Assembly: GCA_030765145.1 (NCBI GenBank)
Contig: JAVCDA010000063.1
Coordinates: forward strand, 1 to 45,655
Direction: 5' to 3'
Source: Candidatus Saelkia tenebricola
GTDB lineage: Bacteria; Omnitrophota; Gorgyraeia; Kaelpiales; Kaelpiaceae
DNA: 45,655 nt
In this document: positions 1 through 41,655 of the stretch, piece by piece
Position numbering within the stretch: the stretch's first letter is position 1
Layout of the letters: each line of letters starts with the position of its first letter
The notes under the pieces: generated by a model
Database searches by the model: none
Told to the model about the DNA's origin: nothing
What the model saw: only the letters and a program-made list of their open reading frames with translations
Translations under genes and position numbers: made by a program

Positions 1-3000
1 TTAATTTTGCCCTCGGCTATCTTCTCTTCTCTCTCTTTTAATGCAATTGCTTCCTTCCTCGACTCTGTCTCCAAACGCTGATTGATTTCTAAAATATACC
101 CTCGGGCCTCCTTATTCGCAAGCTCAATATCTAAAACCTGATTGAAAGACTCTAATGCTTTTTGATAATTCTGATTTTTTAAATTTTTCTTCCCGATTGA
201 AATAAGAGCAGAGATTTCTATACTCCTATCTTGATAAATTTTACCCTCACAACGTGTAAGCATCTCCTGGGCAATTTTATCATCAGGATTAATAACCAAG
301 ATATCATCAAAACTACTCCAGGCTTGCTGATAATCTTTTTCGGCATAATATTCATTAGCTTGTTTCCATAAAACTCTTAATTTTTGCTCCTGGTCTATCA
401 TGTCAGAACATAAAGCAAAATGCCTGGACGCCTCTATATTTCGAGAATCTTCAAGAAGTATTTTCTGTAACATATTTTTAGATTCTTTGTATTTCCCATT
501 TTGATATAGCCCTATTGCTTTATTTAAATTATCTTGAATTTGCTTTTCTTTCTTTTCTAAATCTATCTGCTCATAAATTTCTACAATGCTATTCTTGGCT
601 TCTCTATTAAGAGAGTCTAGCTCTAAAACCTTATTGAAATAATCTAATGCTTCTAAATACTCTTTTTTTCTATACGCCCTTTCCCCTGCCAATAGGAAAG
701 AGGATATTTCCTTTAATTTGCTATTATATATATTATCCTCACAACGATTTAACATATTGACAGCGATTTGATCATTAGAATCAACAGATACAATATCAGC
801 ATACTTTGCCCAAGCTGATTCATATTGTTTTGCAGCATATAATGCATTAGCCTCTTCCCAAAGCAATTTTAATTCCTTTTCTCGCTCTAAATCATATTCG
901 ATGGACATTTCTTCAACATCTTCTTTATCCTCTAATTCTTTTACTTTAATCTCTCTGTTAATCTTAACAATACTATTATCTGCCTCCTTATTAGCTGGAT
1001 CTAATCTCAACACATTATCAAAATATTCCAATGCTTTTTGATACTCTTTATTCCTATATTCCTTTCTCGCAGATACAAGAAGTGTTGACACCTCTCTTTT
1101 CCTCAAAATATCAATCTTGTCTTCACAGCGAGCGAGCATATCCATTGCAGATTTATTATCAGGCTGAATACTTAAAATCTGAGCATATTTTGCCCGAGCT
1201 GATTCATAATTTCTTTGAGTATATAACTGATTTGCTTTTTCCCAAAGCACCTTCAATTCCTCATCTTGTTTCTGAGGCAAATCGGCTATCTTTTTGAACT
1301 GCTGCTTTTCTGTTTTCTCTTCCTTCTTCTCCTTTGCCATACTTTCCTTAACTTCTAATATCTTCCTGTCTGCTTCCTTATTATCGGGAGCGAGATCTAA
1401 AACTTCATCAAAGTATTCCAATGCTTTTTGATATTCTTCATTCCTATATGCTTTTTTACCAGAAATAAGCAAAGAAGTTACTTTTTGATTTCTTGTTTCA
1501 TTAATCTTATCTTCACATTTATTAAATTTATTCATAACATCTTGATTCATTACATCAATGCTCAAAATATCCCCAAATTTTTCTCTGGCTGATTCATAAT
1601 CTCCCTTAGCATATAGTTGATTTGCTTGTTCCCATAAATCTTCTACCTTCTGACGCTTACTTATCATATCAGAACACAGACTGAGGTATTTCTTGGCTTC
1701 AATATTATCCGGGTCCTTTTTAAGCACCTCTTCCAATACCGCTTTTGCTTCTATATGCTTTTTATCTTGATACAAAGCAATAGCATTATTTAAACCAGTT
1801 CTGACTTGTATCTCTGTTTCATCCAATTCCATTTTTTTGTTTATCTCAATAATATTGTTATCTGCACCTTTATTAGCAGGGTCAAGCTCCAAAACTTTAT
1901 CAAAATATTTCAACGCTCTAAGATATTCCCCTCTTCTCAATGCTTTCTTACCCAAAACAAGTAAAGAAGACACCTCTTCCTCTTTTACAATATCAATTTT
2001 ATCTTCACATCGGGCAAGCATATCCATTGCAGATTTATTATCAGAATCCAAAGCTAAAATATCTGCATATTTTGTCCGCGCCAATTCATAACTTCTCCTG
2101 GCGTATAACCTATTTGCCTCCTCCCATAGAGTATTTAAATCTTCTTTTTTTCTCATTGCCTGAGAACATAAAACAATATATTTCTCTGCCACTACATTAG
2201 CTGGATCATTTTTTACAATATTTTTTAACATTACTCTGGATTCAATATATTTTTCATCTTTGTATAATTCTATCGCTCTGTTTAAATCAGCTTTAATTTG
2301 CTCTTTGGTCTGTTTGAGTTCCAACTGTTTATTGATTTCTACAATATTGTCTTCTGCATCTTTATTCATAGAATCAAGCTCTAAAACATCATCAAAATAT
2401 CCCAATGCTTTATCGTATTCTTTTTTCCTAAAAGATTTCTCCCCTAATAAAAGCAGTGAAGAAATCTTCTTAGCTTTATCATCACCTATTTTATCTTCAC
2501 AGCGATCCAACATTTCCATTGCAGATTTATTATCAGGCTGAAGCGTTATGATTTCGGTATATTTAGCCCGAGCTGTTTCATAATCTCCCTGTATATATAC
2601 CTTATTAGCTTCTTTCCACATAGCCTGCAGCTGTTGATCATGGATCAAATCCACATCTAACGATGCCTCTGTTTCTTTTGTCTGTATGCTTACATCAATC
2701 TCCTTAATATAACTCTGAGCTTCTTTATTCTCCGGATCAAACTCTAATGCTTTTTTAAATAACTCTAAAGCCTCAGTATGTTTCCCTTCACGCATCGCTC
2801 TTCTGCCTGACAAGAGCACAGAAGACACATCCATACTCTTACCACTATCTATTTTATTTTGACAACGCTGCAACATATTAACAGCCATCTCATCGCTTGG
2901 TTTTAACGCTAAAATATTTGTATATTTAGACCGGGCTGTTTCATAATCCTGCGCAGCATAAGCCTTATTAGCCTCTTTCCACAGAATCTCTAATTTTACT
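1..3000 (-). repeat. Seven in-frame TPR-like modules within the secretin gene
   Basis: Seven modules each start with a LWxxAN motif followed by YExARxKY and RCEDKI, then a second helix pair with KALxYFDxVLELDP. The Trp codons end at 2981, 2618, 2126, 1634, 1244, 860 and 368. The steps are 363, 492, 492, 390, 384 and 492 nt, so three modules are exactly 164 codons and the rest 121-130. The long modules contain an extra TPR (AIxLYxDxKYxExxxML then LCSDMI). Similarity is clear at protein level and visible in the DNA, implying serial internal duplication. Confidence 0.85.
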
Positions 3001-4553
3001 GTTTTTAGCTCAACTTCCAGTTCTTCTTTATTCTTTTTAACTTCTAACTTCTCAATTGCTTCTTCTTTGATTTTTTTGGCATCGTTTTCTTCTGAATCTA
3101 TCTCGAGAATTTCATCAACCTTTAAGATCACCTCTTCATATTCCTTCTTATATAATAAGTCCTCGATATCTTCATAGAGTTCCTTTATTTTTTTCTCATC
3201 AAGCTCTTTCTGACCCTCTAAATTTATAATATGCGGCGTTACAAATATAAGTAACTCTGATGATGTATCACTATCGGTATTATAGGAAAAAATCTTGCCT
3301 AACAAGGGGATATTACCTAAAAAAGGAATTTTTCTCGTCGTCTTAGTTTTAGTATCACTGATTAAACCTCCGATAACAATAGTCTCTCCATCTTTAACAG
3401 TAACCTTAGTAGTAGCGGTTTTACTTTCTATGATGGGTAATTCAAATCCGGTACCTGTAATTGTTACTGTAGCATCTACCGCTCCTACCGTAGGTTCTAT
3501 ACTCATAGTGATATAATTGTCTCTTGCTATAAAAGGAGTGACTTTTAACGTTATTCCTATATCTTTGTATTCATATCCTGAAACAGTTAATTCACCTGTA
3601 TCACTATTTATTTCATAAGTAGGAAGAGGATATTCGGTTGCAACTCCCATCTCAGCTTCTTGATTATTTAAAGTAGTAACCTGAGGATTGGAAATAACTT
3701 TGCTGTTGGTATTTGTTAAAAGTGCCCTTAAAACAGCTTGGAATTCAGAAAAATCAAGAGTTCCAAAAGTATAGGCATCAGTTTCAGAATCAGGGAAACC
3801 TGCTACATTTTCAGTTGAATCTGAATTAGTAAGATATTTCCTGTTGTTTGCAGCACTTGAGAAAGGCCAAGTAACAGGCCTACCTGCACCTGATGCCGTT
3901 ACAGCCATAGTCCAATCAATACCCAAATTTTTTGTTGTTCCTAATGAAGTTTCAATAAATTTTGCTTCGATTAAAACTTGCTTGCCCTTAACATCTGCAT
4001 TTTTGATAAAACCCTGAATCATACTTAAATTATCTTCAGTATCGGTGATCATTATTGAATTTGAAACTTCATCAACAACAATTTTACCTTCATCACCCAA
4101 AAGTGATGTTATATTCTCTAAAATTCCGCTGGCTGCAATATTTTCTACCTGAAAACTTTTAACAAGCGCCGGCTTTGCTCTAACTCTGATAACATTGTCA
4201 ATTTCTTTCATGGTGTAATTTTGAGAATCCAAAATTTGCTTTAACGCTTCTTTAATCGAAATATTACCCAAACTTGCAGTGACCATTCCTTCGACTTCTT
4301 TATCAGCAATAATGTTTAATCCATACTGGTAAGCAAAAAACCTGATGATATCTTTCAGATCAGCGTTTCTAAATTCTATATTGAAGATATTTTCACCCTT
4401 CTGCTCTATTTTTATATTCTTTCCTAACTTTTCAGCAACAATCTCTTCATCTGTCACAACATCTGTCTCCACCGCTTCTTCTGCCCAAACAATATCAACG
4501 GGGATGAAACTAACTGAAATTAAAAATACAATTATGATACTTGCTATTTTCAC
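1..4553 (-). CDS. pilQ: Secretin fused to a very long TPR-repeat region (partial, runs off left edge)
   Basis: Outer-membrane channel of a type IV pilus or type II secretion machine. The frame is open from a GTG at 4553 to the window edge, about 1,517 codons with no stop. Residues 1-24 are a signal peptide (cleavage near VWA-EEA). Residues 50-125 resemble an STN domain, 130-190 a secretin N1 domain, and about 195-445 a secretin domain with the ISNPQVTTLNN and KIPFLGNIPLLGKIF motifs and the terminal VTPHII. From about 446 onward the protein is acidic, helical TPR-like repeats, which ordinary secretins lack. The GTG overlaps the pilP stop (GTGA), so translation is coupled. The pilQ label rests on the secretin fold plus adjacent pilP. 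Whether the repeats sit in the periplasm is inference. Confidence 0.9.
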   Translation of the reverse strand, partial: MKIASIIIVFLISVSFIPVDIVWAEEAVETDVVTDEEIVAEKLGKNIKIEQKGENIFNIEFRNADLKDIIRFFAYQYGLNIIADKEVEGMVTASLGNISIKEALKQILDSQNYTMKEIDNVIRVRAKPALVKSFQVENIAASGILENITSLLGDEGKIVVDEVSNSIMITDTEDNLSMIQGFIKNADVKGKQVLIEAKFIETSLGTTKNLGIDWTMAVTASGAGRPVTWPFSSAANNRKYLTNSDSTENVAGFPDSETDAYTFGTLDFSEFQAVLRALLTNTNSKVISNPQVTTLNNQEAEMGVATEYPLPTYEINSDTGELTVSGYEYKDIGITLKVTPFIARDNYITMSIEPTVGAVDATVTITGTGFELPIIESKTATTKVTVKDGETIVIGGLISDTKTKTTRKIPFLGNIPLLGKIFSYNTDSDTSSELLIFVTPHIINLEGQKELDEKKIKELYEDIEDLLYKKEYEEVILKVDEILEIDSEENDAKKIKEEAIEKLEVKKNKEELEVELKTVKLEILWKEANKAYAAQDYETARSKYTNILALKPSDEMAVNMLQRCQNKIDSGKSMDVSSVLLSGRRAMREGKHTEALELFKKALEFDPENKEAQSYIKEIDVSIQTKETEASLDVDLIHDQQLQAMWKEANKVYIQGDYETARAKYTEIITLQPDNKSAMEMLDRCEDKIGDDKAKKISSLLLLGEKSFRKKEYDKALGYFDDVLELDSMNKDAEDNIVEINKQLELKQTKEQIKADLNRAIELYKDEKYIESRVMLKNIVKNDPANVVAEKYIVLCSQAMRKKEDLNTLWEEANRLYARRSYELARTKYADILALDSDNKSAMDMLARCEDKIDIVKEEEVSSLLVLGKKALRRGEYLRALKYFDKVLELDPANKGADNNIIEINKKMELDETEIQVRTGLNNAIALYQDKKHIEAKAVLEEVLKKDPDNIEAKKYLSLCSDMISKRQKVEDLWEQANQLYAKGDYESAREKFGDILSIDVMNQDVMNKFNKCEDKINETRNQKVTSLLISGKKAYRNEEYQKALEYFDEVLDLAPDNKEADRKILEVKESMAKEKKEEKTEKQQFKKIADLPQKQDEELKVLWEKANQLYTQRNYESARAKYAQILSIQPDNKSAMDMLARCEDKIDILRKREVSTLLVSARKEYRNKEYQKALEYFDNVLRLDPANKEADNSIVKINREIKVKELEDKEDVEEMSIEYDLEREKELKLLWEEANALYAAKQYESAWAKYADIVSVDSNDQIAVNMLNRCEDNIYNSKLKEISSFLLAGERAYRKKEYLEALDYFNKVLELDSLNREAKNSIVEIYEQIDLEKKEKQIQDNLNKAIGLYQNGKYKESKNMLQKILLEDSRNIEASRHFALCSDMIDQEQKLRVLWKQANEYYAEKDYQQAWSSFDDILVINPDDKIAQEMLTRCEGKIYQDRSIEISALISIGKKNLKNQNYQKALESFNQVLDIELANKEARGYILEINQRLETESRKEAIALKEREEKIAEGKI

Positions 4554-5041
4554 TCAGTCACCCCCAATAACTGTTCTATCATTCCTTCGGTCCATTCTTC
4601 TGTCGCCTGAAGTTCTTCCGATGCTGTTATTGTTTCTGTCACACCAGATTCTTCTTTTACAACTTCCGGTTTTTGAACTGCTAAAACATGTTTTAATTTT
4701 AATTCCATCTCTTTAAGATCCGTCTTTAGAATAATGCTGAGAGGCTTTATTTCCTTAATAGTAAAATTTCCGACAATATCACCTTCGATATAAAATTCGG
4801 AATTTATTATTGCAACTTTTTTCTCCCCATAAACTATTGCGGAAAGATTAAGTTTTTGTAAAGGAATATTCTCTTTGGTTTTTTTCTCGGTAGGTTTAAT
4901 GCCAAGTTCTTTCATTTCTTCTTTCTGTGTCAAAAATGGGTTCCTTAAATAAGAAGCTTTTTCTTGAGAAAAAGCTTCCTTAAAAGAATATAATATTAAT
5001 AGAATTATTAAAACAAAAAAAATAAAAAAACTTTTTTTCAT
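4550..5041 (-). CDS. pilP: PilP-like pilus assembly protein (GspC/PilP HR domain)
   Basis: Inner-membrane-anchored periplasmic protein expected to link the PilM/N/O platform to the secretin. Residues 5-20 are a single hydrophobic anchor; no lipobox Cys is present, unlike many PilP lipoproteins. The RNPF motif near residue 32 precedes the core at about 63-120 (LNLSAIVYGEKKVAIIN, then a GD-hydrophobic pattern), matching the PilP/GspC homology region. The C-terminal 35 residues are Glu/Thr-rich. It overlaps the HTH gene by 4 nt (ATGA) and the secretin start by 4 nt (GTGA), so the three genes form one translationally coupled unit. 163 aa is normal for PilP. Confidence 0.78.
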   Translation of the reverse strand: MKKSFFIFFVLIILLILYSFKEAFSQEKASYLRNPFLTQKEEMKELGIKPTEKKTKENIPLQKLNLSAIVYGEKKVAIINSEFYIEGDIVGNFTIKEIKPLSIILKTDLKEMELKLKHVLAVQKPEVVKEESGVTETITASEELQATEEWTEGMIEQLLGVTE

Positions 5042-27299: not shown

Positions 27300-27881
27300 C
27301 TATTCTACTTCAGAAGCAGATTGAATTATCGAAATTCTGAAATCAGTTTCCACCAGCGGAACTATAGCAGGATTTCTTTTTAATTCTAATTCTTCCATAT
27401 TAAGTAAATACTTAGCCTTTTGCAGAATACCGTAAAATTTGATCATATCTTGATACTTTCCCTGACAATAAATCCTGAACTGCCTGCGATAAAAACCCCC
27501 ATCATCAATCGCTTCAAGCGGTATAATATCAACTCTTATTTCCTTTAATCTGTATTCCGAAGAAAACTGGTCAGAAAACCCCTGTAGAAGCTTAACAAAC
27601 TCAGTTGTATCAACACTATGGGGAATAGCATCTGAAAACTTCAAAGTTTTAGATTCTATCTCGAGCTGCTCTTTTTTAAAACTATTTACTTCTTGCATCA
27701 TCATTTTCTTTCTTTTCATTTCACCATTAGCAATATTGATTTTCTGGTCCAACTCACGCATCTGATTTTTCCCTCCCTTAAACAAATTACCGAAAAAAAC
27801 CAATCCGAATATTAGACCTACAACCACAAGAACGATTATCGTTATAAAACTTTGGTTAGATTTTAAAAAACTTTTTTTCAT
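27300..27881 (-). CDS. pilO: PilO-like pilus alignment protein
   Basis: Inner-membrane protein that pairs with PilN and contacts PilP. One transmembrane helix (about 13-33), a charged coiled coil (about 38-78), then a ferredoxin-like periplasmic domain with the PilO-style FYRRQFRIYCQGKYQDMIKFYGIL segment. 193 aa is normal. It overlaps the pilMN stop by 4 nt. PilP and the secretin, the next genes in a standard pilMNOPQ operon, are instead about 22 kb away. Confidence 0.82.
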   Translation of the reverse strand: MKKSFLKSNQSFITIIVLVVVGLIFGLVFFGNLFKGGKNQMRELDQKINIANGEMKRKKMMMQEVNSFKKEQLEIESKTLKFSDAIPHSVDTTEFVKLLQGFSDQFSSEYRLKEIRVDIIPLEAIDDGGFYRRQFRIYCQGKYQDMIKFYGILQKAKYLLNMEELELKRNPAIVPLVETDFRISIIQSASEVE

Positions 27882-29545
27882 AATTTTCTTTTCTCTTGTA
27901 CATTTTCTTCTACATATCCTGCTATTGTATAAGGAAATTCTTTAACCTCTCCAATTCTGACTTTTCCGGAACGCTTAATTTCAAACTTCACATCTTTAAA
28001 TAATTTTGACTCCTCCAATCCCAACCGCACCTTTCTTAGGGTCAGTTGAGCATCCGGAAATGTACCTACATAATTCCCATCAATTTGAAACACCATTTCC
28101 TCATCTTCTGTGAAACTAATCCAAATACTCTCAACAAGCATCTGAAGATCTATCAAATTGCCAACTTCTATAAATAACCTTTCCCAATTTATATAGGGTT
28201 TTTGAAAATCAGAAAAACTTTCTTTAAGATCAAAAAATTCTTCTCTTTTTTTCAAAACGTTATCATACTTTTGTTCTAAATCAGCAGGGTGTTTTTGCAT
28301 TTCAACTTGTATTTGATTAAATGCTTCCTCCTTCGCAAAAATCTTTTTATCATACCCAATATAGTAATAATAGGCTACCCCATAAGCAATCAAAAATACT
28401 GCACATATTTCGGCATAAATCGCTTTAGAAATCTTTTTCTTCTCTGATTTAGGCACAAGATTAAGCTTGCTTTTAAGATCAAAACTTAATGCGGATCCAA
28501 TACAAGCAGTATATAAATGATAAATATTTTCTGGTTCTTTTATATTAGAAGATAAGGTAATTTTTTTAGAAACTGGTAATATATTAACATTAAGCTTAAT
28601 CCTGTCTTTAAATACCTGTTGTAATCCCTTGATATTTAAAGCTGTTCCAGTAAGAATCACATCAGAGATCTTATCGCCATCTCCATATTTTTCTTGATAA
28701 AAAAGTATTGAACGTTGCAACTCGGCTTTAAATTTATCCAGGAATTTAAAAACAGAATTCTTATATTTCTGAACTTGATCCACATCAGGATATGATTCAA
28801 ACTCAAATCCATATTTATTAAGAAAATCTTCTGTTTCTTTAACCGAAATAAATAACTCCTGAGATATCAAATTTTTCAGACTCTCCATTGTTACATATAT
28901 ATTTCTGACAAACTTTAGTTGACCTGATTTAACTATAACAATAGATGTAAGATCTTGCCCCACATCAACTAAAGCAGCATCGCTAAGATCCGGATAAAGT
29001 TTTATGAGAAGACTAAATAATGAAAAAGATTTTACCGTAAACATATTCGGCCTTATTCCAGTAGATATAAAGTTATTAAAATAGTCCGCCAACTTTGCTC
29101 TATCAGTAAGAACTGTCAAAACATCCTGAGTTTTATCTGTTTTTACAGCTTTTTCACTAAGTTTTAAATATGCTATCTGAGTTTCAACATCTTCTGCCAT
29201 GGTAACTGTCTTTTTCACTTCCCTTTCTAAAAACTGGATCATATCTTTGCCTTTAATCAACGGAACAGTCAGCAAAATGGTATTAGCATCTTTGGGAGGA
29301 ATTATAAAAGAGATAGATGCTGAAGCATAATTCCTACCCTTAAATTCTTCTTTAAGCTTGGAAATCAGAATCTCCCAATCAACTATGCGTTCATTCGTAC
29401 GTTCCCCTCCAGGAAGAGTAAGCATTGGTATCGGGATTTCCCTAAGAGAATTGATTTTAAAATCACTTGTTCCAGCTGAGTCTAACTCTGCTATTCTTAA
29501 GTTTTCTAACCCTAATTCTATTCCAACAAGTTTTTTTACAGCCAT
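27878..29545 (-). CDS. PilM-PilN fusion protein
   Basis: Two pilus platform proteins in one chain. Residues 1-355 are the actin-like PilM (GIELGLENLRIAEL at the start, ALVDVGQDLTSIVI near 191, DVILTGTALNIKGL near 295). LNLVPKSEKKK at 361-371 is the normal beginning of PilN; by itself that motif is what PilM binds in other systems. A transmembrane helix follows (376-397), then a coiled coil and a PilN ferredoxin-like domain (about 450-555). 555 aa equals the sum of both families. A promoter lies just before the ATG. Confidence 0.85.
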   Translation of the reverse strand: MAVKKLVGIELGLENLRIAELDSAGTSDFKINSLREIPIPMLTLPGGERTNERIVDWEILISKLKEEFKGRNYASASISFIIPPKDANTILLTVPLIKGKDMIQFLEREVKKTVTMAEDVETQIAYLKLSEKAVKTDKTQDVLTVLTDRAKLADYFNNFISTGIRPNMFTVKSFSLFSLLIKLYPDLSDAALVDVGQDLTSIVIVKSGQLKFVRNIYVTMESLKNLISQELFISVKETEDFLNKYGFEFESYPDVDQVQKYKNSVFKFLDKFKAELQRSILFYQEKYGDGDKISDVILTGTALNIKGLQQVFKDRIKLNVNILPVSKKITLSSNIKEPENIYHLYTACIGSALSFDLKSKLNLVPKSEKKKISKAIYAEICAVFLIAYGVAYYYYIGYDKKIFAKEEAFNQIQVEMQKHPADLEQKYDNVLKKREEFFDLKESFSDFQKPYINWERLFIEVGNLIDLQMLVESIWISFTEDEEMVFQIDGNYVGTFPDAQLTLRKVRLGLEESKLFKDVKFEIKRSGKVRIGEVKEFPYTIAGYVEENVQEKRKL

Positions 29546-29555
29546 AAGTTGTACA

Positions 29556-29583
29556 ATTTTACCAAATAATTATAATATTTCAA
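29556..29583 (-). promoter_or_regulatory. pilMN promoter, nearly leaderless
   Basis: Minus-strand TTGAAA at 29583-29578, 16-nt spacer, TAAAAT at 29561-29556 preceded by TGG. The -10 box ends 10 nt before the ATG, leaving a leader of only a few bases and no Shine-Dalgarno. Confidence 0.55.
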
Positions 29584-29604
29584 TCTCATAACCCGTTACT
29601 CACA

Positions 29605-31011
29605 TCACAGCCCATCCGGCTTAATATCATCAGCTGCTCCCGAATCATCATCTTTATCAGGCCCATAGGAATAAAAATAATAAACAGTTTCACTCCCTGC
29701 TGTCATAGAATCCAAAGCATATTCCGTCTCCCACTCATCATATTTAAATGCATAATCATGTAAATCAAAATAATCCCTTGGGTGTCCCGGATTCTCGTAA
29801 TGACGCAGGATTTCATCTGCAGAAAGAGCAATATTATAGATACAAACTTCGTCGATGTACCCATTAAAGTAATTCCCAGATACATCCCATATTCCACCTC
29901 CTCCGATATCAAATGCATACGAAGAATTCGTATGGGAATTTCTACTAACAGAATCTACTTGTCTAGCATCAACGTATAATATAAGATCGCTTCCATCCCA
30001 AACTACCGTAAAATAATACCATATATTTAAAGTGGAGAAGCTATAGCTAACAGAATTTTGTGGTGTCCAGCAACTAACCGTTGAGCTATTTATAAAACCA
30101 AATCCCACAGCATTGTTCTGTCCAAAAAAACCTATTCTATTTCCTGAGCTTTTCGGGTAAACCCAACCTCCCATTGAAAAAGCACTAACATCATTTAATA
30201 AATTTTCACCTGTTCCGACATAATCAGCAGCTCCATCAAAACTACCACAACACCCTATTTTTCCGCCACTGATTGTAGTAACACCATTATATGCTCTCCC
30301 ATGATTACCCGCGCCGGAATAATCTACTACCTCATCTGCCGCTCCAGTCCAAGAAGATTCATCCATATGCATATTCAAAACTTCCCACTCAAACAAATCG
30401 CCTATTGTAGATGGGGCAGAACCAGTAGCACTTATATAATCATAAAGCGCAATTTGAATAATATTAAGTTCATCCTGAGTTGCTCGAATTTGATCATCCT
30501 GAATGCTTTTGGCATTAGCTCTAATTGTAGTATCATCTCCACCGCTTGCTCTATCAGCCCCGAAACTAATTACTTCACAATAATTATTCCCATATGTATA
30601 ATTATATACATAATCACTCTGCCAAGCATCCGACATATATCCATTATCATTAAATTTATCCTGAATATAAGGCCCATCCCATTTGCTTAACCTCCATGTT
30701 TTTAATGCGTTAGACCCATCGAACCTGTTTCTATTCGGAGGAACTCTTTCTAAATCCAAGAAAATGTTACTCGTAGAACCACTATCTTTAGGAAATTGGC
30801 CTATATCTTTATAAAATGCCAACAGCGATTCTTTAATTCTTTCTAATTCTTTTTCTGTAGCTCTATTAAGATCTGCATTAGTCGTTTTGTAAAAAACCGT
30901 TACAAATGTACCGCCAATCAAGCTGGAAATAACAATAGCTACAATAAGCTCCATTAATGTAATGCCTGAGGTATTAATTTTTAATTTCAGTTTTGAGAAA
31001 ATAAATTTCAT
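29605..31011 (-). CDS. Tandem GspG-type pseudopilin with inserted LamG-like domain
   Basis: A prepilin-type leader (cleavage between Gly16 and Ile17, with the required Glu at +5 in GITLMELIVAI) and hydrophobic helix are followed by a first GspG-like module ending in the calcium-loop-like SFGADRASGGDD (149-160). A second module begins about 170 and is interrupted at about 212-408 by a LamG/concanavalin-like fold (LNDVSAFSMGGWVYP, WYYFTVVWDG, GYIDEVCIYNIALSADEI). It resumes in YAFKYDEWETEY and ends with YSYGPDKDDDSGAADDI. 468 aa is three times a normal pseudopilin. It is the last of the pseudopilin series before pilMN. Confidence 0.82.
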   Translation of the reverse strand: MKFIFSKLKLKINTSGITLMELIVAIVISSLIGGTFVTVFYKTTNADLNRATEKELERIKESLLAFYKDIGQFPKDSGSTSNIFLDLERVPPNRNRFDGSNALKTWRLSKWDGPYIQDKFNDNGYMSDAWQSDYVYNYTYGNNYCEVISFGADRASGGDDTTIRANAKSIQDDQIRATQDELNIIQIALYDYISATGSAPSTIGDLFEWEVLNMHMDESSWTGAADEVVDYSGAGNHGRAYNGVTTISGGKIGCCGSFDGAADYVGTGENLLNDVSAFSMGGWVYPKSSGNRIGFFGQNNAVGFGFINSSTVSCWTPQNSVSYSFSTLNIWYYFTVVWDGSDLILYVDARQVDSVSRNSHTNSSYAFDIGGGGIWDVSGNYFNGYIDEVCIYNIALSADEILRHYENPGHPRDYFDLHDYAFKYDEWETEYALDSMTAGSETVYYFYSYGPDKDDDSGAADDIKPDGL

Positions 31012-31032
31012 AATTCTAAACCTTAACTTTCC

Positions 31033-31734
31033 TTATGGCACTCCAATCGGAAGAATATCATCGTCGGCACATGTATCATTCGCCCCATCAGGTCCATAGG
31101 AATAAAATGTGGCTTTGGTACTATCGTAATGATACTCCTCCCCATCAGCCCTGACTGTTCCCGGTGTGCTCCGCTTACCCCAAGGATCATAGATACAATT
31201 ATTATCCGATAAATTAAAACCAGTAGTTGTAGAAGTTACACTGGTTGTCAAAGATTTGCCTTCTCTTGTAAAATTTTCAGCAGCTTTATTAACTTTTTTC
31301 AAAGCATCCTGAGTCTGTTTTTTATATTTTTTATATATCTCCATACAGGTAACATTGTAAGTAATATCATCTGTAGCTCCTGAATCATTTGTTCTGTTGG
31401 GTCCATAAGAAACAATTGTCACTGTTTTAGAATCTGTTTTAGTATAAACGAGCGCTTTCCTCCAAGCATCATAAGCATAATCATTCGCATACGCTGATTC
31501 CCGAATATAATTAGGTTCAAGATCCGTTAAATTAGCAGCTGGTAAGTCAAACTTGCAATCGTAATAAAGCAAAAGAGCTTCATTTAAAGCTTGCATCTTA
31601 TTTTCTGTAGCAGAAACTTGTGCCCTTTTCATTGTAGTCGCTGCCAAAGGAGTAAGCGCCCCTGCCAATAATCCCAAGATGGTTATGACAGCAACAAGCT
31701 CTATCAATGTGAGTGCCTGCTTAGATGTCTTCAT
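31033..31734 (-). CDS. Pseudopilin with two GspG-like modules
   Basis: Prepilin N-terminus ALTLIELVAVITILGLLAGAL carries Glu at +5. The residue before cleavage is Ala rather than Gly, if the site is KQA-LTLIE, which is atypical. Module 1 ends with the motif SYGPNRTNDSGATDDI near 110 and module 2 with SYGPDGANDTCADDDI near 212; the second has a GspG-like DPWGKRSTPG loop. At 233 aa it is about 80 longer than one GspG. It overlaps the next upstream pseudopilin gene by 4 nt. Confidence 0.82.
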   Translation of the reverse strand: MKTSKQALTLIELVAVITILGLLAGALTPLAATTMKRAQVSATENKMQALNEALLLYYDCKFDLPAANLTDLEPNYIRESAYANDYAYDAWRKALVYTKTDSKTVTIVSYGPNRTNDSGATDDITYNVTCMEIYKKYKKQTQDALKKVNKAAENFTREGKSLTTSVTSTTTGFNLSDNNCIYDPWGKRSTPGTVRADGEEYHYDSTKATFYSYGPDGANDTCADDDILPIGVP

Positions 31735-32402
31735 GGTGTCATATCAATTCCTCCGGAATACACTTCGTCACCACTTCCCGGAGTACCATCCGGACCGTAA
31801 CTGTAGAATGTAGAAAGAGCCGCGTCATAACGATAAGGATTACCCCAGGGGTCATAAATATTAGCAGCATCTAAGTGGGCAGCAAGGTTTACAGAGCTAT
31901 CTCCAGAACCTATAGTATTCCCTGCTCTTATGTGCTTCTCTACAGCTTCATTTACTTTTCCTAATCTTTCCTCTGTCGTCTGCCTCCATTTATTCCATAT
32001 ATCTTTCGCCTGAACAATGTATATAATATCATCCCCTCCGCCATCTGCTCTATCAGGACCATAAGAACGTACTTTATTAGTCGCACCTCCTACATTGTAA
32101 GTATACACAAAAGGGACACGCCAGGCATCACAGGCATAATCATCAGCATAATCTGATTCGCTTACATAACCAGCTGTTTCTAAAGCAGTTAACCCCGCAG
32201 GGTCTATTGGAAATATTGCATAATTCTCATAATAACTCAATAACGCTGTATTAAGAATTTCTAATTTCCTTTTAGTTTCTTTAATCTTTGTTGTCCTTAA
32301 AGCAACTGTAGATAGAGGTGCTAGAATTCCGGCAAAAATACCCACAATAATAATAATCACCATTATCTCTAACAGAGTAAATCCTTTTTCTTTCCTATAC
32401 AT
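31731..32402 (-). CDS. Pseudopilin with two GspG-like modules
   Basis: The ATG at 32402 is chosen because GAAGGAGG precedes it and it yields a normal prepilin start (MYRKEKG, then FTLLEIMVIIIIVG, with Gly at -1 and Glu at +5); upstream ATGs in frame lie inside the neighbouring gene. The first module ends in SYGPDRADGGGDDI near 108 and the second in DPWGNPYRYD then YSYGPDGTPGSGDEV near 201. 223 aa. Organisation matches its downstream neighbour, implying duplication. Confidence 0.84.
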   Translation of the reverse strand: MYRKEKGFTLLEIMVIIIIVGIFAGILAPLSTVALRTTKIKETKRKLEILNTALLSYYENYAIFPIDPAGLTALETAGYVSESDYADDYACDAWRVPFVYTYNVGGATNKVRSYGPDRADGGGDDIIYIVQAKDIWNKWRQTTEERLGKVNEAVEKHIRAGNTIGSGDSSVNLAAHLDAANIYDPWGNPYRYDAALSTFYSYGPDGTPGSGDEVYSGGIDMTP

Positions 32403-32418
32403 AATAAACCTCCTTCTT

Positions 32419-33888
32419 TTAATCTTGGGTAATATCATCTCCACCACCTGATGCTTTATTCGGCCCATAGCTATAAAATTCATCATCGATTGAATCCCAA
32501 ACATATTCTGTCTGCCATTCATCATACTTGTATGCCCAGTCAGTTAAATAACTCCCCCGCAAATATTCTTGAAAAACATCACTATCAGGTAAAGCGCGAG
32601 ACCAAACGCGAACCTCATCAATTGTACCAGTAAATTGATATGAATTGGCAGATTGCCCTTTGCCAATAAATTGGCGACTAGCATAATCCGTTGCAGGGAT
32701 GTATGGAGTAACTAGAGTTCCAGAGACACTATTATCTACATCGCCATTTAAATATATTGTCATCGATCCAAAATCATCACCATCATACACACCAGCAACA
32801 TGATACCAGTTATTCGCTACCAATGTTGTTGTTCCGAGAATGCTCTTTTGCCCGCTTGCCCCCATGGATAGATGTAATTTCCCATTATTTCTTACATTAA
32901 AATGTGGTAAATAATGTCCCATGAACATATTATATGCTTTGGGAAACGATGTTGGTTTAATCCACGCTTCATAAGTAAACCCCGTACCAATATCAAAATC
33001 AGCATGGTCATTTATTTGTATATATTCATTGCTGCCGTCAAAATTTAAAGCTTTACCTAATTTCCCGCTATTAATCCAATCACTACTTTCCATGCTTTCC
33101 AAGGTACCATTATGCCCTCCTGAGCTGCTGTCATCTGCAGTATTACCGCTTCCATCATCCAACTTCCACCAACCAACTAAGCCTGCTGTATCAGCTCCGT
33201 AAGTCCGAAACAAATCATCAATATCAAATCCGGCAGGAGGCCAGGATTCACCTGCATTATCATATCTTGTTTCTAATTCTTCTTTTTTAGCATTTATGTA
33301 AGCAAGCTCATTTTTTGTCTTCCTTATTTTTTCCTCAACTATATCATTGGCATAGACAGTTATTATGATATCATCCCCCCCACCGCTAATTCTATTCAAT
33401 CCATAACTTGTAAGAGTGCAAGTTGTAGCACCTGCGGTATAGTCATAAACATAATTCGTTCTCCAAGCATCGTAAGTATAATCATCAACATCAAATAAAT
33501 CAGGGGTAGAAACATCAGAATCAAATCCACCCTCAAAATAAGTCCCCTCCCACACACTCTGCCGGTATGACTTTAAGGAAGCTGAGCCCTCAAACCGGCT
33601 GGTAGCCGGTTGTGACTGTAAATCAGCAAAATCTGTCGCAATAACATTAGTATCTTGTGGAAACTGATCACAATCTTTATAAAAGCCCACAAGCCCCTTT
33701 CGAATCTTCTCCATTTCTATCTCTGTTTTCTCAACAGTTTGGGATTTTAAAATAACATCGCTTAAAACCAAAACACTCCACACAGATAGAGACACAACAG
33801 CAACTAAAATTACAACAGATACGAAAGTAACTCCATTTTTTGAAAACCCATTCGCATCAATCTTCAATATAAAATTATCGATTAACAA
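32419..33888 (-). CDS. Tandem GspG-type pseudopilin with LamG-like insert and aberrant leader
   Basis: Starts at a TTG (33888). The leader SKNGVTFVSVVILVAVVSL keeps Gly at -1 but has Ser, not Glu, at +5. Module 1 ends with SYGLNRISGGGDDI (161-174). A LamG-like domain occupies about 235-445 (GLVGWWKLDDGSGNTADDSS, FTYEAWIKP, WYHVAGVYDG, IDEVRVWSRALPDSDV). Module 2 then resumes (YKYDEWQTEYVWDS) and ends in FYSYGPNKASGGGDDI. 489 aa. No ribosome site is visible before the TTG, so the true start is uncertain. Confidence 0.78.
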   Translation of the reverse strand: MLIDNFILKIDANGFSKNGVTFVSVVILVAVVSLSVWSVLVLSDVILKSQTVEKTEIEMEKIRKGLVGFYKDCDQFPQDTNVIATDFADLQSQPATSRFEGSASLKSYRQSVWEGTYFEGGFDSDVSTPDLFDVDDYTYDAWRTNYVYDYTAGATTCTLTSYGLNRISGGGDDIIITVYANDIVEEKIRKTKNELAYINAKKEELETRYDNAGESWPPAGFDIDDLFRTYGADTAGLVGWWKLDDGSGNTADDSSSGGHNGTLESMESSDWINSGKLGKALNFDGSNEYIQINDHADFDIGTGFTYEAWIKPTSFPKAYNMFMGHYLPHFNVRNNGKLHLSMGASGQKSILGTTTLVANNWYHVAGVYDGDDFGSMTIYLNGDVDNSVSGTLVTPYIPATDYASRQFIGKGQSANSYQFTGTIDEVRVWSRALPDSDVFQEYLRGSYLTDWAYKYDEWQTEYVWDSIDDEFYSYGPNKASGGGDDITQD

Positions 33889-33937
33889 TTAACATAACGG
33901 TTAAAATATGAATTTCGCAACGAATATAACTTCATTT

Positions 33938-35155
33938 TTAGTGGGATTTTACAGCACCGACCATACTAAACAAAGGGACAAAAATTGAAAATGCTATAAA
34001 ACCTACCCCCAGCCCCATTACGACCAGCATTAACGGTTCCAGCACAGTAAAAACTTTATTGATTGTCTTAGGAACCTCAGTATCATAATATTCAGATACC
34101 TTACCTACGGTTTCCTCCAAAGTTCCTGATGTTTCCCCCACAGCTACCATGCGAGTAATCAAAGCTGGGAATTCTGATGTTTCCCGAAATGCATCAGAAA
34201 GATTCTCGCCTATATTTACCTTGTCGCGTATTGCAGCAATATCCTTTTCTACCACTTTGTTGCCAACAACATCAACACATAAATCCAATGCTCTCATAAC
34301 ATCAATACCTGATCTCAATGACATAGAAAAAGTATGGGCAAATCTTGAAATACAAACTTTTTTCATCAAAATTCCAAAAATCGGAAGATGCAATTGTAAT
34401 TTATCATATAACAAATGCCCCTGTTTGGTCTTAATAAAAGTCTTAAGCCCCGCTACTAAAAGTCCCGTGCCAATTAAAATAAGCTTCCACCTCAATTTTA
34501 TAAATTCGCTAAGCCAGATTAAAAACTCTGTTGACAGAGGTATCTCAATACCCATGCCTCTAAATATTCCAATAAATTTTGGGAAAACAAAAGTAACCAA
34601 TAGAATAATAGCTCCCCCAATTGCTATAAAAAGGATCAACGGATACATCATAGCTTGTTTAACCTGGGCTTTTAATGATTCCTGCCACTCCAAATATCCG
34701 GAAAGATATTTTAAAACCCCTGCCAAATTACCAGTTGTCTCCCCACTTCTTACCGAACCTACATATAACTGATCAAAGATCTTGGGATATTTTTTTAAGG
34801 ATTCCTCAAAAGAAAACCCCTTTTCTATCATACTGTAAATATCATAAACTATAACTCCTACATTTGGATCTTCCGGGCTGTTAGAAAGGTCGTAAAGAGC
34901 GCTCATCAATGGAACACCGCTATCGAGATATGTTGCGAGCTGATAAGTGAAAGTGGTTAAAGAAGTAACTTTAATGGTGGTGACTTTTCTAGGACTGAAT
35001 ATCTGTATATCTTTTTTAACAACTTCATGGACTGAAACCAGAGTTTGACCGCTTTCAGTAACAATACGCTCTACTTCTTTTTCAGTATCGGCTGTGACTT
35101 TGCCTTTAATATACTTTCCATTACTATCTACAGCTTTATAAGCATATTTAGGCAT
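33938..35155 (-). CDS. gspF: Type II secretion/pilus platform protein GspF/PilC
   Basis: Polytopic inner-membrane core on which the ATPase acts. Starts with the family PKYAYKAVDSNGKYIKG motif. Two T2SSF domains (about 65-190 and 265-390), each followed by hydrophobic helices; the second has RFAHTFSMSLRSGIDVMRALD and the conserved MVAVGETSGTLEETV. 405 aa is normal. No Shine-Dalgarno is visible. It lies in the middle of the pseudopilin cluster, splitting it three and four. Confidence 0.92.
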   Translation of the reverse strand: MPKYAYKAVDSNGKYIKGKVTADTEKEVERIVTESGQTLVSVHEVVKKDIQIFSPRKVTTIKVTSLTTFTYQLATYLDSGVPLMSALYDLSNSPEDPNVGVIVYDIYSMIEKGFSFEESLKKYPKIFDQLYVGSVRSGETTGNLAGVLKYLSGYLEWQESLKAQVKQAMMYPLILFIAIGGAIILLVTFVFPKFIGIFRGMGIEIPLSTEFLIWLSEFIKLRWKLILIGTGLLVAGLKTFIKTKQGHLLYDKLQLHLPIFGILMKKVCISRFAHTFSMSLRSGIDVMRALDLCVDVVGNKVVEKDIAAIRDKVNIGENLSDAFRETSEFPALITRMVAVGETSGTLEETVGKVSEYYDTEVPKTINKVFTVLEPLMLVVMGLGVGFIAFSIFVPLFSMVGAVKSH

Positions 35156-35183: not shown

Positions 35184-35690
35184 CTATGAATTTGGGCCTT
35201 CCGCTACATAAATATCAATACTAGCACCACTACCACGAACATTACCTGCCCCAGTAGCACCATCATCGAGTAAGTTATCAACCTCTGCCTGAATATCACT
35301 GGGCAAAGCATCTGCACCTTGATCTATTGAAACATACAATTCATTTCCAGCCGTTCCATCATAATTAAAAGCAGCATAGGTCCCGTAGTTATAGTCATAC
35401 TCACCATTCCAAGGAGTTTCATCAGGCCAGGCATCAATATAATCAGGAGCAAGACCAGGGTCAACTCCTTGAGCTACTTCAACAGGAAAAGCCGCGTTAT
35501 CACCATAATAAGACATAAGCGCCTTTCTGATCATATTGACATCCGCTGTTGATTTAGTAACTCGTCCGGCTTGGATAACATCATTTATTTTAACTACCGC
35601 AGTAGCTGCAAGTATACCCATAATAACTATGACCATAACCAACTCAATTAATGTAAAACCCTTTTTCATATAAATATTTTTCATCTTCAT
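35184..35690 (-). CDS. Type IV pilin-like / GspG-like pseudopilin
   Basis: Canonical prepilin start: basic leader MKMKNIYMKKG, then FTLIELVMVIVIMGILAATAV, with Glu at +5. The globular part is 140 residues and lacks the SYGPDG loop of its neighbours, having instead an acidic, Gly-rich C-terminus (VDNLLDDGATGAGNVRG). It could therefore be the main subunit or a different class. It overlaps the previous pseudopilin by 4 nt (ATGA). Confidence 0.85.
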   Translation of the reverse strand: MKMKNIYMKKGFTLIELVMVIVIMGILAATAVVKINDVIQAGRVTKSTADVNMIRKALMSYYGDNAAFPVEVAQGVDPGLAPDYIDAWPDETPWNGEYDYNYGTYAAFNYDGTAGNELYVSIDQGADALPSDIQAEVDNLLDDGATGAGNVRGSGASIDIYVAEGPNS

Positions 35691-36115
35691 CTCTCGTACA
35701 ATTTTTTGTAATAATATAGCACTATCCCCACATTACCTCCCATACTATCAAGCCTTTCAAATTTTGTACATCCTACAATAGCATAAGGAGGACTCGTGTT
35801 GAATCTTTTGTAAGCATAGCGATAGGTAGCATTATTTTTGGGATCTGCTATTGTCTGAGTAATATGGTTATCATCTGTAAGTTCGGAAAGAAAACCTGAT
35901 GCATTGCTATACTCCCAACCAACACGGGGGTACGCCCCGCTATTCTCCATATGGTAAATCTGCAACGCACTGGCAAGACTGTCAATATCAGCAATTCTTC
36001 TGGCATCTCTTCCTTTTTCAATTGTCGCTACAATCCTGGGGGTAATCATTCCTGCTAATAACCCCATGATTACAATAACCGCCACAAGCTCTGTTAATGT
36101 AAATGCTTTTTTCAT
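35687..36115 (-). CDS. Minor pseudopilin
   Basis: The ATG at 36115 (MKKAFTLTELVAVIVIMGLLAGM) is chosen because GGAG lies 9 nt upstream and it gives a standard prepilin leader; longer in-frame starts lie in the neighbouring gene. Ala rather than Gly precedes the cleavage site. The body is short (142 aa total) with PRIVATIEKGRDARRIADIDSLASALQIY, a typical GspG helix, but the C-terminal calcium-loop motif is missing. Confidence 0.82.
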   Translation of the reverse strand: MKKAFTLTELVAVIVIMGLLAGMITPRIVATIEKGRDARRIADIDSLASALQIYHMENSGAYPRVGWEYSNASGFLSELTDDNHITQTIADPKNNATYRYAYKRFNTSPPYAIVGCTKFERLDSMGGNVGIVLYYYKKLYER

Positions 36116-36119
36116 TTTT

Positions 36120-36602
36120 CTAATCTCCATCGTTATAAACGACAACATAAATATCATCATCTCCATTGGAAGCAGTTATCAAATGAGGATTTGTCATATC
36201 ATTACCTTCATCCGGACCATATGATAACAAATAAGAAATCGGCTTACCGGATGTGCCATCATTATCTGCATATCTGTAAGCAATTCCCCAAGGGTCAGTA
36301 AGAACAGATTTGTCTATATACGGCCCGTCCCAACCACCGGCACTATCATCTGTTAAAAGTGCATTAAGAATAGCTGTTGTGATATTTGCTTCACCAAAGA
36401 CAGCTGATTTAGGCGGAAGTTCTCCGGTATCATCTTTATACGCCAGCATAGCCCCTTTTATATGGTTAAGCTCTGCTTGAGCCTTGGAATCTTTTGCTTG
36501 AGTAAGCACCCTATTAACTTGAGGAAGCAGGATTCCTCCTAAGGCAATAATCACACTCATCACAACTATCAGTTCCATTAACGTAAAAGCATTCTTTTTC
36601 AT
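36120..36602 (-). CDS. GspG-type major pseudopilin-like protein
   Basis: Begins MKKNAFTLMELIVVMSVIIALGG with Glu at +5. Start chosen at the ATG (36602), which has AAGGTGG 5 nt upstream, rather than the GTG three codons earlier that is part of that site. A single GspG module has WDGPYIDKSVLTDPWGIAYRY and a SYGPDEGNDM loop ending in NGDDDIYVV. 160 aa. It is the first pseudopilin after the ATPase, the usual place for a GspG-like subunit. Confidence 0.86.
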   Translation of the reverse strand: MKKNAFTLMELIVVMSVIIALGGILLPQVNRVLTQAKDSKAQAELNHIKGAMLAYKDDTGELPPKSAVFGEANITTAILNALLTDDSAGGWDGPYIDKSVLTDPWGIAYRYADNDGTSGKPISYLLSYGPDEGNDMTNPHLITASNGDDDIYVVVYNDGD

Positions 36603-36623
36603 TTTATCCACCTTTTTGAATTA

Positions 36624-38615
36624 TTATACAATAACTTCTTGGGTTACCCTAAACATTTCTTCAACTGTGGTTGTTCCTTTAAGAACCTTCAACAAACAAT
36701 CATCCCTTAAACTATGCATTCCTTCCTCTTGTGCAACCCTATCTATATCGGATGCAGGAGCATGAGAAATTATCAACTCTTGAATTTTAGGAGTAACTTT
36801 CAGCATAGAATATATTCCTATTCTACCCTTATAACCTGTACCTTTACATAAAGAACACCCTTTGCCTTTATAAAACACCACATCTTTCTTCCCAGTTAAA
36901 TCCAGTTCCTCAATTATAGTCTGAACAGGTTTATACGATTCCTTGCATTTTTCACAAATCACCCTAATCAAACGCTGGGCAATGACACCGATAATCGAAC
37001 TTGATGCTAAAAACGGTTCTATCCCCATATCAATAAAACGCGGGAAAGCACTTGCTGCGTCATTAGTATGAAGGGTTGAAAACACTAAATGACCTGTTAA
37101 TGCAGAATGAACAGCTATCTCAGCTGTTTCTAAATCCCTGATTTCACCAACCATTATTATGTCAGGGTCCTGTCTCAATATAGCACGCAAACCCGCTGCA
37201 TACGTAAGACCTATCTGAGGATTAACTTGTGTCTGCCTAATTAAAGACAGCTGGTATTCTATAGGATCTTCCATTGTCATAATATTTCTATCCTCGGTAT
37301 TGACCCTGTTAAGAGCAGAATACAAGGTTGTAGTTTTACCACTACCTGTAGGTCCGGTAACCATAATCATACCATACGGCCTGGCAAGAAAATCTGTAAA
37401 TAGATTAAAATCTTCTTTTGAAAAACCCAAACTTTCTATTCCTATCATAATGCTGGATTTATCCAATATTCTCATAACAATGTTTTCCCCAAACATTGTG
37501 GGCTGCAATGAGACACGCAAATCTATGGATTTATTACCTACTTCCATTTTTATTCTTCCATCTTGGGGCAATCTTCTTTCGGCTATATCCAAATCAGACA
37601 TAATTTTCATACGCGAGGTAATAGGTGCTTGTAAGAATTTAGGTAAAGAGACAACACGATGCAAAACTCCATCAATTCTGTATCTAACTCTAACCATTTT
37701 GTCTTCCGGCTCAATATGAATATCACTCGCCCTGTCTCTTACGGCCTGGACCATTATCAGATTGGCAAGTTTTACAATCGGAGCTTCTTCACCTGCTTCC
37801 TTAGCACTTAAAAGCTTTTTCTCATCAACGGATTTTACAATTTCATAAATAGTATCTGCGGTGCCATATGTCTGATCAAGCGTTCTGACTATTTCCATAT
37901 CAGATGCCAGAACAGGTTCAATCATAAGCCCCGTCTCTCTTTGAAGCTGATCAATAGCATGAATATCCGTAGGATCAGCCATAGCTATGGTTAAAGTATT
38001 AGATTCTTTAAATAGAGGTAGGATTTTTAATTTCCTAACAACAGCCTCGGGTATAAGAGCTGCTATTTCCGGTTCTATTATTATGCTGGCAAGATCAACA
38101 GTTTGAACCCCCATCTCAATACCTAAAAGTAAAGGCATATGTTCTTTAGAAAGAAACCCGCTTGCAATTAAAACATCCTTTAACTCTTTTTCTGTTTCTT
38201 CAGACTCTTTTTTAGCAGAATCTAACTGTTCTTCTGTTAAAAGCCCCCGATCTATAAGAACCTCTTCCAGTGTTTTTGATTTAATAAAAGAAGGCCCCTC
38301 TTTGCCATCACTTTCTTCTAAATGTTCATACTTCTCAAGTTTATCTGCTTGAGTTAAATCAGCTGTAAATTCATCTGCAACATCAGAACTTAAATCCTGC
38401 TTGTCTTCCTTTGAACCTTCCTCAGGAATTAAATCTTTCTCTTTCTCGCTATCGTCTTCTTTAATGTTATCAGGGCTTTTAGGATCTGAATTCGGCTTGT
38501 CTTCTTTTGAACTTTCTTTAGAAACTAAATCTTGATTTTGCTCGCTATCATCTTCTTTCTTTTGCTCATTCTTTGCTTCTTTAAAATCCAAATCTTGCTC
38601 TTTATTATTTTCCAT
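36624..38615 (-). CDS. gspE: Type II secretion/pilus assembly ATPase GspE/PilB
   Basis: Hexameric cytoplasmic ATPase that drives pseudopilus extension. The start at 38615 follows GGAG by 7 nt. A low-complexity acidic extension occupies about 1-105, containing two similar segments (each KEDDSE...SKEDK). An MshEN-like region follows (about 117-180), then the ATPase: Walker A GPTGSGKT (423-430 counted from two codons upstream), DPDIIMVGEIRD, STLHTND and a zinc pair of CxxC motifs (CEKC, CSLC). The residues that bind c-di-GMP in MshEN domains (RLG) are replaced (TLE, ELK), so such regulation is doubtful. Confidence 0.93.
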   Translation of the reverse strand: MENNKEQDLDFKEAKNEQKKEDDSEQNQDLVSKESSKEDKPNSDPKSPDNIKEDDSEKEKDLIPEEGSKEDKQDLSSDVADEFTADLTQADKLEKYEHLEESDGKEGPSFIKSKTLEEVLIDRGLLTEEQLDSAKKESEETEKELKDVLIASGFLSKEHMPLLLGIEMGVQTVDLASIIIEPEIAALIPEAVVRKLKILPLFKESNTLTIAMADPTDIHAIDQLQRETGLMIEPVLASDMEIVRTLDQTYGTADTIYEIVKSVDEKKLLSAKEAGEEAPIVKLANLIMVQAVRDRASDIHIEPEDKMVRVRYRIDGVLHRVVSLPKFLQAPITSRMKIMSDLDIAERRLPQDGRIKMEVGNKSIDLRVSLQPTMFGENIVMRILDKSSIMIGIESLGFSKEDFNLFTDFLARPYGMIMVTGPTGSGKTTTLYSALNRVNTEDRNIMTMEDPIEYQLSLIRQTQVNPQIGLTYAAGLRAILRQDPDIIMVGEIRDLETAEIAVHSALTGHLVFSTLHTNDAASAFPRFIDMGIEPFLASSSIIGVIAQRLIRVICEKCKESYKPVQTIIEELDLTGKKDVVFYKGKGCSLCKGTGYKGRIGIYSMLKVTPKIQELIISHAPASDIDRVAQEEGMHSLRDDCLLKVLKGTTTVEEMFRVTQEVIV

Positions 38616-38676
38616 GTTCACACTCCAATTTTATTATAAATCTACATTCTCATTTTACATATTTACGATATAATTT

Positions 38677-41654: not shown

Positions 41655-41655
41655 T

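Follow-up and report, generated by a model that had tools for sequence, protein, structure and literature searches.

Tandem-module pseudopilins of Candidatus Saelkia tenebricola with LamG domains held in the second module: a probable variable tip of a type IV filament

What would a type IV filament gain from pilins whose heads are doubled and, in some genes, split by a lectin-like domain? The question is raised by a contig of Candidatus Saelkia tenebricola (Omnitrophota), of which 45,655 nucleotides (the window) were analysed. From the letters alone, the original prediction placed four consecutive genes at 29605-33888, and all four open reading frames are found there on the minus strand (D1 to D4; Table 1). 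Our preferred reading, to which we give a probability of roughly 0.6, is that they belong to a third type IV filament of the cell, in which they replace the HIJK tip set and carry LamG domains at the tip, with a variable face that gives each species its own specificity.

Table 1. Positions of the pilin genes, their parts and the associated machinery in the window
Feature	Position	Strand	Description and basis
PilB/GspE extension ATPase	36624..38621	(-)	T2SSE E 5e-137
Three single-module GspG-like pilins	35184..36611 (35184-35690, 35687-36166, 36120-36611)	(-)	N_methyl and GspG models; all with Glu5
PilC/GspF platform protein	33938..35155	(-)	T2SSF E 9e-53
D1	32419..33888	(-)	Two-module pseudopilin with LamG; leader G/VTFVS, without Glu5 (tip-cap-like)
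D1 LamG domain, aa 236-446	32551..33183	(-)	Pfam E 8.5e-28; AF2 strands 237-429; Foldseek AbnA domain 4, target TM-score 0.71
D1 LamG variable core, aa 286-422	32623..33033	(-)	26-33% identity among orthologues against 58-84% in flanks
D1 module-2 C-terminal strands (LTDWAYKYDEWQTEYV...SYGPNKASGGGDDI)	32422..32547	(-)	Alignment, module-1 profile, AF2
D2	31731..32402	(-)	Two-module pseudopilin without LamG; module 1 to 32010, module 2 32009-31734
D3	31033..31734	(-)	Two-module pseudopilin without LamG; module 1 to 31348, module 2 31347-31036
D4	29605..31011	(-)	Two-module pseudopilin with LamG
D4 LamG domain, aa 208-410	29782..30390	(-)	Pfam E 8.6e-19
D4 LamG variable core, aa 261-385	29857-30231	(-)	22-33% identity among orthologues
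D4 module-2 C-terminal strands (LHDYAFKYDEWETEYAL...SYGPDKDDDSGAADDI)	29608..29781	(-)	Alignment, module-1 profile
PilM-PilN fusion (GspL-like)	27878..29545	(-)	PilM_2 E 2e-15, TIGR01175 E 7e-26; length, conserved position
PilO/GspM-like	27300..27881	(-)	Position and topology only; no Pfam match; conserved place after PilM-N
PilP/GspB-like periplasmic protein	4550..5041	(-)	T2SSB E 4e-4, below Pfam's curated cut-off
Secretin with TPR extension of >1,000 aa, running off the window	3..4553	(-)	Secretin E 1e-49 and TPRs

Each of the four genes encodes one prepilin leader, and Pfam matches to N_methyl and T2SSG occur among them. The leader of D1 has no N_methyl match and that of D4 falls below the cut-off; both align with the other leaders. 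In D3 the last leader residue is Ala. The likely start of D2 is at 32402 (MYRKEKGFTLLE) and not at the start of the longest open reading frame, which reaches 32525 and overlaps D1.

The second module is less obvious than the first. T2SSG matches module 1 in all four proteins, and two stretches in D2. A profile built from the twelve module 1s of this genome and the two other near-complete genomes of the family (G000, G002 and G003) scores module 2s at up to 32 bits, and 10 of the 12 module 2s of these genomes score above 13.1 bits, the highest value among 24,000 shuffled sequences. When module 2 is searched alone, T2SSG is the top Pfam family for D2 (E 3.2e-3) and for a relative in G008, a genome from another class of the phylum (8.7e-4); module 2 of D3 alone has no Pfam T2SSG match. 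The AF2 model of D2 (mean pLDDT 79, pTM 0.66) consists of a long pilin helix (10-61) and a sheet of three strands (99-131), followed by a second helix (133-159) and two further strands (191-193 and 198-201), and GspG/PulG chains make up four of its five best PDB matches in Foldseek, with probabilities of 0.95-0.99 and E-values of only 0.08-0.33. The alignments behind this model and that of D1 (below) are shallow (5 and 13 rows), because only window proteins and proteins of related loci entered them. Pfam, the module-1 profile and the D2 model thus agree with the predicted plan of one leader and two GspG-like modules per gene; module 2 is a genuine second GspG-type copy that lacks the membrane helix.

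A search of other genomes for the same architecture, as had been suggested, returns two-module pilins in G002, G003 and G008, that of G008 without LamG. Full-length double modules thus occur in G008 and in all three of the family's near-complete genomes; at the sensitivity used, none was found in any other genome sampled from the class or the phylum.

Laminin_G_3 (PF13385) matches residues 284-438 of D1 and 259-401 of D4 and is absent from D2 and D3. To place the insert, D1 and D4 were aligned with D2, D3 and the LamG-free G008 relative, leaving out alignments that pulled D2 and D3 into the LamG columns. In both proteins LamG sits at the same point, between ...IDDLF/IGDLF... and LTDWAYKYDEW/LHDYAFKYDEW. 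The strongest evidence for this insertion point is the insert-free relative, a two-module pilin of 224 aa that matches D2 across both modules (E 1.6e-21): its module 2 runs ...SIDELYNGGY LTDFSFRTDLWGNDYY..., and that of D1 runs ...DIDDLFRTYG, then LamG, then LTDWAYKYDEWQTEYV.... Since a tree of the scaffolds separates D1 and D4 from D2 and D3 (98/95), the simplest history is a single insertion and a later duplication.

The AF2 model of D1 (pLDDT 69, pTM 0.52) shows a helix (22-72), a sheet (147-179), another helix (180-212), a LamG jelly-roll (237-429) and a closing pair of module-2 strands (463-465/470-473, pLDDT 82-89); residues 76-137 of module 1 are poorly predicted. Among its top 50 Foldseek matches, the best target TM-score belongs to the arabinan-binding domain 4 of AbnA. 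Matches to clostridial neurotoxin binding domains and sialidases reflect the generic jelly-roll (target TM-score about 0.3) and have no bearing on toxicity. Pfam, the insert-free relative and this model agree that LamG splits the second module of the first and last genes. The LamG fold, on which that claim was staked, and the closing strands are in the D1 model; the GspG-likeness of module 2 in D1 and D4 is recognisable only in the helix and tail.

PF13385 is confined to D1 and D4, giving two copies per near-complete genome of the family, and most of the LamG-matching reading frames inspected elsewhere in the phylum have a secretion-type signal at their start in place of a pilin leader. The idea that the two LamG domains of the window align best to each other does not hold: they share 25% identity (E about 1e-7), and that of D1 matches LamGs of other families at about 1e-23. 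A sister origin of the two domains was set aside at the level of their cores, with AU tests still not rejecting single clades.

The neighbouring genes supply the rest of a filament machine. Together with the single prepilin peptidase of the genome, they provide the set that marks the type 4 filament superfamily: extension ATPase, platform protein, prepilins, prepilin peptidase and, for a diderm, a secretin. LptD is encoded at 7559-9622, which supports a diderm cell. The order PilB, three pilins, PilC, D1, D2, D3, D4, PilM-N and PilO is the same in G002 and G003; the genes for the PilP-like protein and the secretin are found towards the opposite window end. In the secretin, the TPR repeats follow the secretin domain for more than 1,000 residues, and on the same contigs of G002 and G003 the secretin matches fall within frames of 1012 and 1722 aa. 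Genomes further away in the class have ordinary minor pilins ahead of their PilM-N fusions (about 25% identity), so D1-D4 fill the minor-pilin slot. Elsewhere the same genome encodes an ordinary type II secretion system, which has minor pilins of its own, and a type IV pilus whose locus includes a PilT-like gene (both named from sequence reading); this makes the D1-D4 system a third filament.

Several side observations concern the surroundings. A protein of the O-antigen-ligase/Wzy_C type with TPR repeats (38677-40305, minus strand) is encoded directly upstream of pilB and is kept in G002 and G003; it is possibly a pilin O-glycosyltransferase. Adjoining the operon at 40431-44071 (plus strand) are genes for a FIST-domain protein, a GAF histidine kinase and a response-regulator-GGDEF protein, and in G008 a FIST protein and a GAF/GGDEF-like protein likewise precede the pilus operon. 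An outer membrane protein of the alginate-export type lies at 44263-45618 (minus strand). In G008, a Cys-rich, secreted-looking protein of 316 aa with repeated SPWSxC-like motifs and no Pfam match (L148:12176-13126) is encoded between pilB and the two-module pilin and could be a tip partner there; in G018, of the same family as G008, there is a row of four to five pilin genes whose leaders are nearly identical (L150:4888-7843).

The machinery could also build a short endopilus that serves secretion in the manner of a type II system, its tip LamGs selecting or pushing out secreted substrates and not binding other surfaces. PilM and PilN are fused as in GspL, a mark of type II secretion (555 aa, of which 8-339 form the PilM domain and the rest is N-like), the locus has a secretin and a GspB/PilP-like protein, and the layout of the operon resembles E-F-G-H-I-J-K-L-M. 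No PilT, the retraction ATPase expected of a type IVa pilus, is linked to the locus in the family (the contig has a single T2SSE match), so that the filament only presumably extends beyond the cell, and HIJK tips are thought to recognise effectors (PMC10191384). Against this, the genome already has an ordinary type II secretion system, PilT is present in the two-module pilin operon of G008, and a variable core of the kind described below suits outside-facing ligands better than a cell's own substrates. We consider an endopilus rather unlikely.

If D1-D4 are a tip set, one of them should cap it. Tip complexes are capped by a subunit without Glu5 (PMC10191384), and among D1-D4 only D1 lacks Glu5, in all three genomes; D1 is thus probably the cap. 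As in an HIJK set, four minor pilins are encoded together, one of them without Glu5. None of the four reaches an equivalog cut-off for GspH, GspI, GspJ or GspK (the best match is a weak one, of D2 to GspH at 33.9 bits against a cut-off of 80), and where GspK has an alpha-domain insert D1 carries LamG. D1 and D4 have the extra non-pilus domain, Laminin_G_3, that defines Pelicic's modular type IV pilins; the extra module of D2 and D3 is itself a pilin, so these two fall outside the definition. The tandem modules and the LamG insertion of the original prediction are thus borne out, and operon context and Glu5 pattern speak for its tip set; its description of the system as undescribed fares less well, as discussed at the end.

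The LamG domains themselves are divided into conserved and variable parts. G002 and G003 are two species of a single genus. Identity between them is 81-84% for the scaffolds of D1 and D4, and 84-89% for D2 and D3 as a whole. Between the same two genomes the LamG core, bounded by the FDG and IDEV motifs, is only 29% (D1) and 22% (D4) identical, and nucleotide identity falls from 0.79-0.89 outside to 0.37-0.52 in the core. A third species of the genus (G004) has a further distinct D4 core (25-28% to the other two). The conserved parts of LamG are the first and last strands, which adjoin the holder, and the central strands lie in the variable part. This contrast between scaffold and core in sister species is new. 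Assembly error is unlikely, because the contrast is in frame and recurs in both genes and in more than one genome.

Third-position GC drops in the core relative to the flanks in D1 of G002 and in D1 and D4 of G003, and every core except that of G004 has its best-scoring LamG partner in another family and not in its own. The tree of cores is saturated, with neither D1 nor D4 cores forming a clade, and AU tests do not reject clades or vertical descent of the cores (p 0.10-0.60); exchange is therefore likely, not proven. Judged from these sequences, exchange or very fast divergence of the putative binding site, two courses that the phylogeny does not tell apart, would be the likely explanation of the contrast. 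IS200-like (Y1) transposase genes lie directly downstream of D4 in G004 (L039:817-1575) and G001 (L038:8578-9234); they are absent at that place in the other three genomes, and could bear on movement of LamG parts.

It might instead be argued that the LamG parts have no specific ligand and serve as structural spacers, diverging under little constraint. Conservation of the LamG ends beside a differing core, and AU tests that allow vertical descent, would suit such spacers, but all eight LamG copies or fragments in the family still exceed the family cut-off (E 8e-15 to 5e-29) in open frames, and the divergence beside flanks conserved at 82% is too large for simple relaxation. We regard spacers as very improbable. 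A pilus that recognises other cells, whether for predation, for symbiosis or to exchange DNA, and whose range of partners is set by the variable LamG, would accord with core variation between sister species, with the analogous Kil tips (PMC12075869) and shufflon PilV (PMC9045228), and with the FIST, histidine kinase and response-regulator-GGDEF module that adjoins the operon. No killing genes, conjugation genes or shufflase are found among the annotated window genes, however, and no inverted repeats around D1-D4, which leaves this role improbable. A shufflon or phase variation was likewise rejected: 29500-33950 holds no inverted repeats, its direct repeats are the module motifs themselves, and with only two LamGs per near-complete genome no spare copies are found in the family.

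Because the middle of LamG differs almost completely between sister species and the rest is constant, D1-D4 probably form an exchangeable gripping tip. In the reading that we prefer, the filament would be assembled in a diderm envelope by PilB, PilC, PilM-N, PilO, the PilP-like protein and the secretin, with D1-D4 as four minor pilins standing in for the usual HIJK set. Module 1, a membrane-anchored and normal GspG, would pack into the filament, and module 2, a soluble GspG, would lengthen the head. In D1, the probable cap, and in D4, the split module 2 would hold LamG out, fixed at both ends, as a rigid platform at the tip. The pilin scaffold and the LamG ends would be kept and the central strands, the presumed binding face, replaced or quickly diverging, so that the surface glycan or protein recognised might differ from species to species. 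Not all LamG domains bind sugars. For ligand binding by the LamGs of D1 and D4 the precedent is S. sanguinis PilC (PMC9934059); tip assembly, exposure outside the cell, ligand binding and a function in adhesion are what we infer. A more specific version, which we hold only tentatively, is a dedicated specificity platform: the tandem-module holder would receive lectin central strands swapped between species by recombination at the conserved LamG end motifs, giving the tip a new ligand and leaving the filament unchanged. A pilin head can, then, be doubled and its second copy serve as holder of a foreign domain, and nature here offers a series of tip lectins on one constant scaffold, which makes the origin of new tip binding specificity directly testable.

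For the principle, "undescribed" is too strong a word. In the published catalogue of pilin architectures, those that combine a pilin with PF13385 lectin modules rank among the commonest (PMC8179133), and the lectin module of the S. sanguinis tip pilin PilC binds glycans (PMC9934059). D1 and D4 share with these pilins a class III signal peptide, a concanavalin-like domain and a proposed role in adhesion (PMC9934059, PMC8179133), and with S. sanguinis PilC a tip set with more than one adhesive module (PMC9934059). They differ in that the extra module of the known pilins follows a single pilin module, whereas LamG lies inside the second copy of a doubled one; S. sanguinis PilC also has an Ig-like module. 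Insertion into the pilin fold is known from GspK and from ComZ of Thermus (PMC8179133), where, as here, a minor or tip pilin carries the extra domain and where the GspK position, like D1, lacks Glu5; there the insert is an alpha domain or a beta solenoid in the sole pilin module, and in D1 and D4 it is LamG. D1-D4 resemble GspG/PulG in the T2SSG matches of module 1 and of module 2 of D2, in the top Foldseek matches of D2 and in the SYGxDG...DDI loop, but have two tandem modules, of which the second lacks the hydrophobic helix. Variable domains at filament tips are known from the Kil pilus (PMC12075869) and from shufflon PilV (PMC9045228), where minor pilins likewise carry specificity regions that can be exchanged; D1 and D4, unlike these, have no inverted repeats or silent LamG copies, and their variation is between species and internal to LamG. 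No description of tandem pilin modules, or of LamG held inside a second pilin module, was found in the literature searched. A lectin on a pilin, a domain inserted in the pilin fold and variable tips are thus already known, and the comparison suggests that tandem pilin modules with LamG held in the second are apparently new against that literature.
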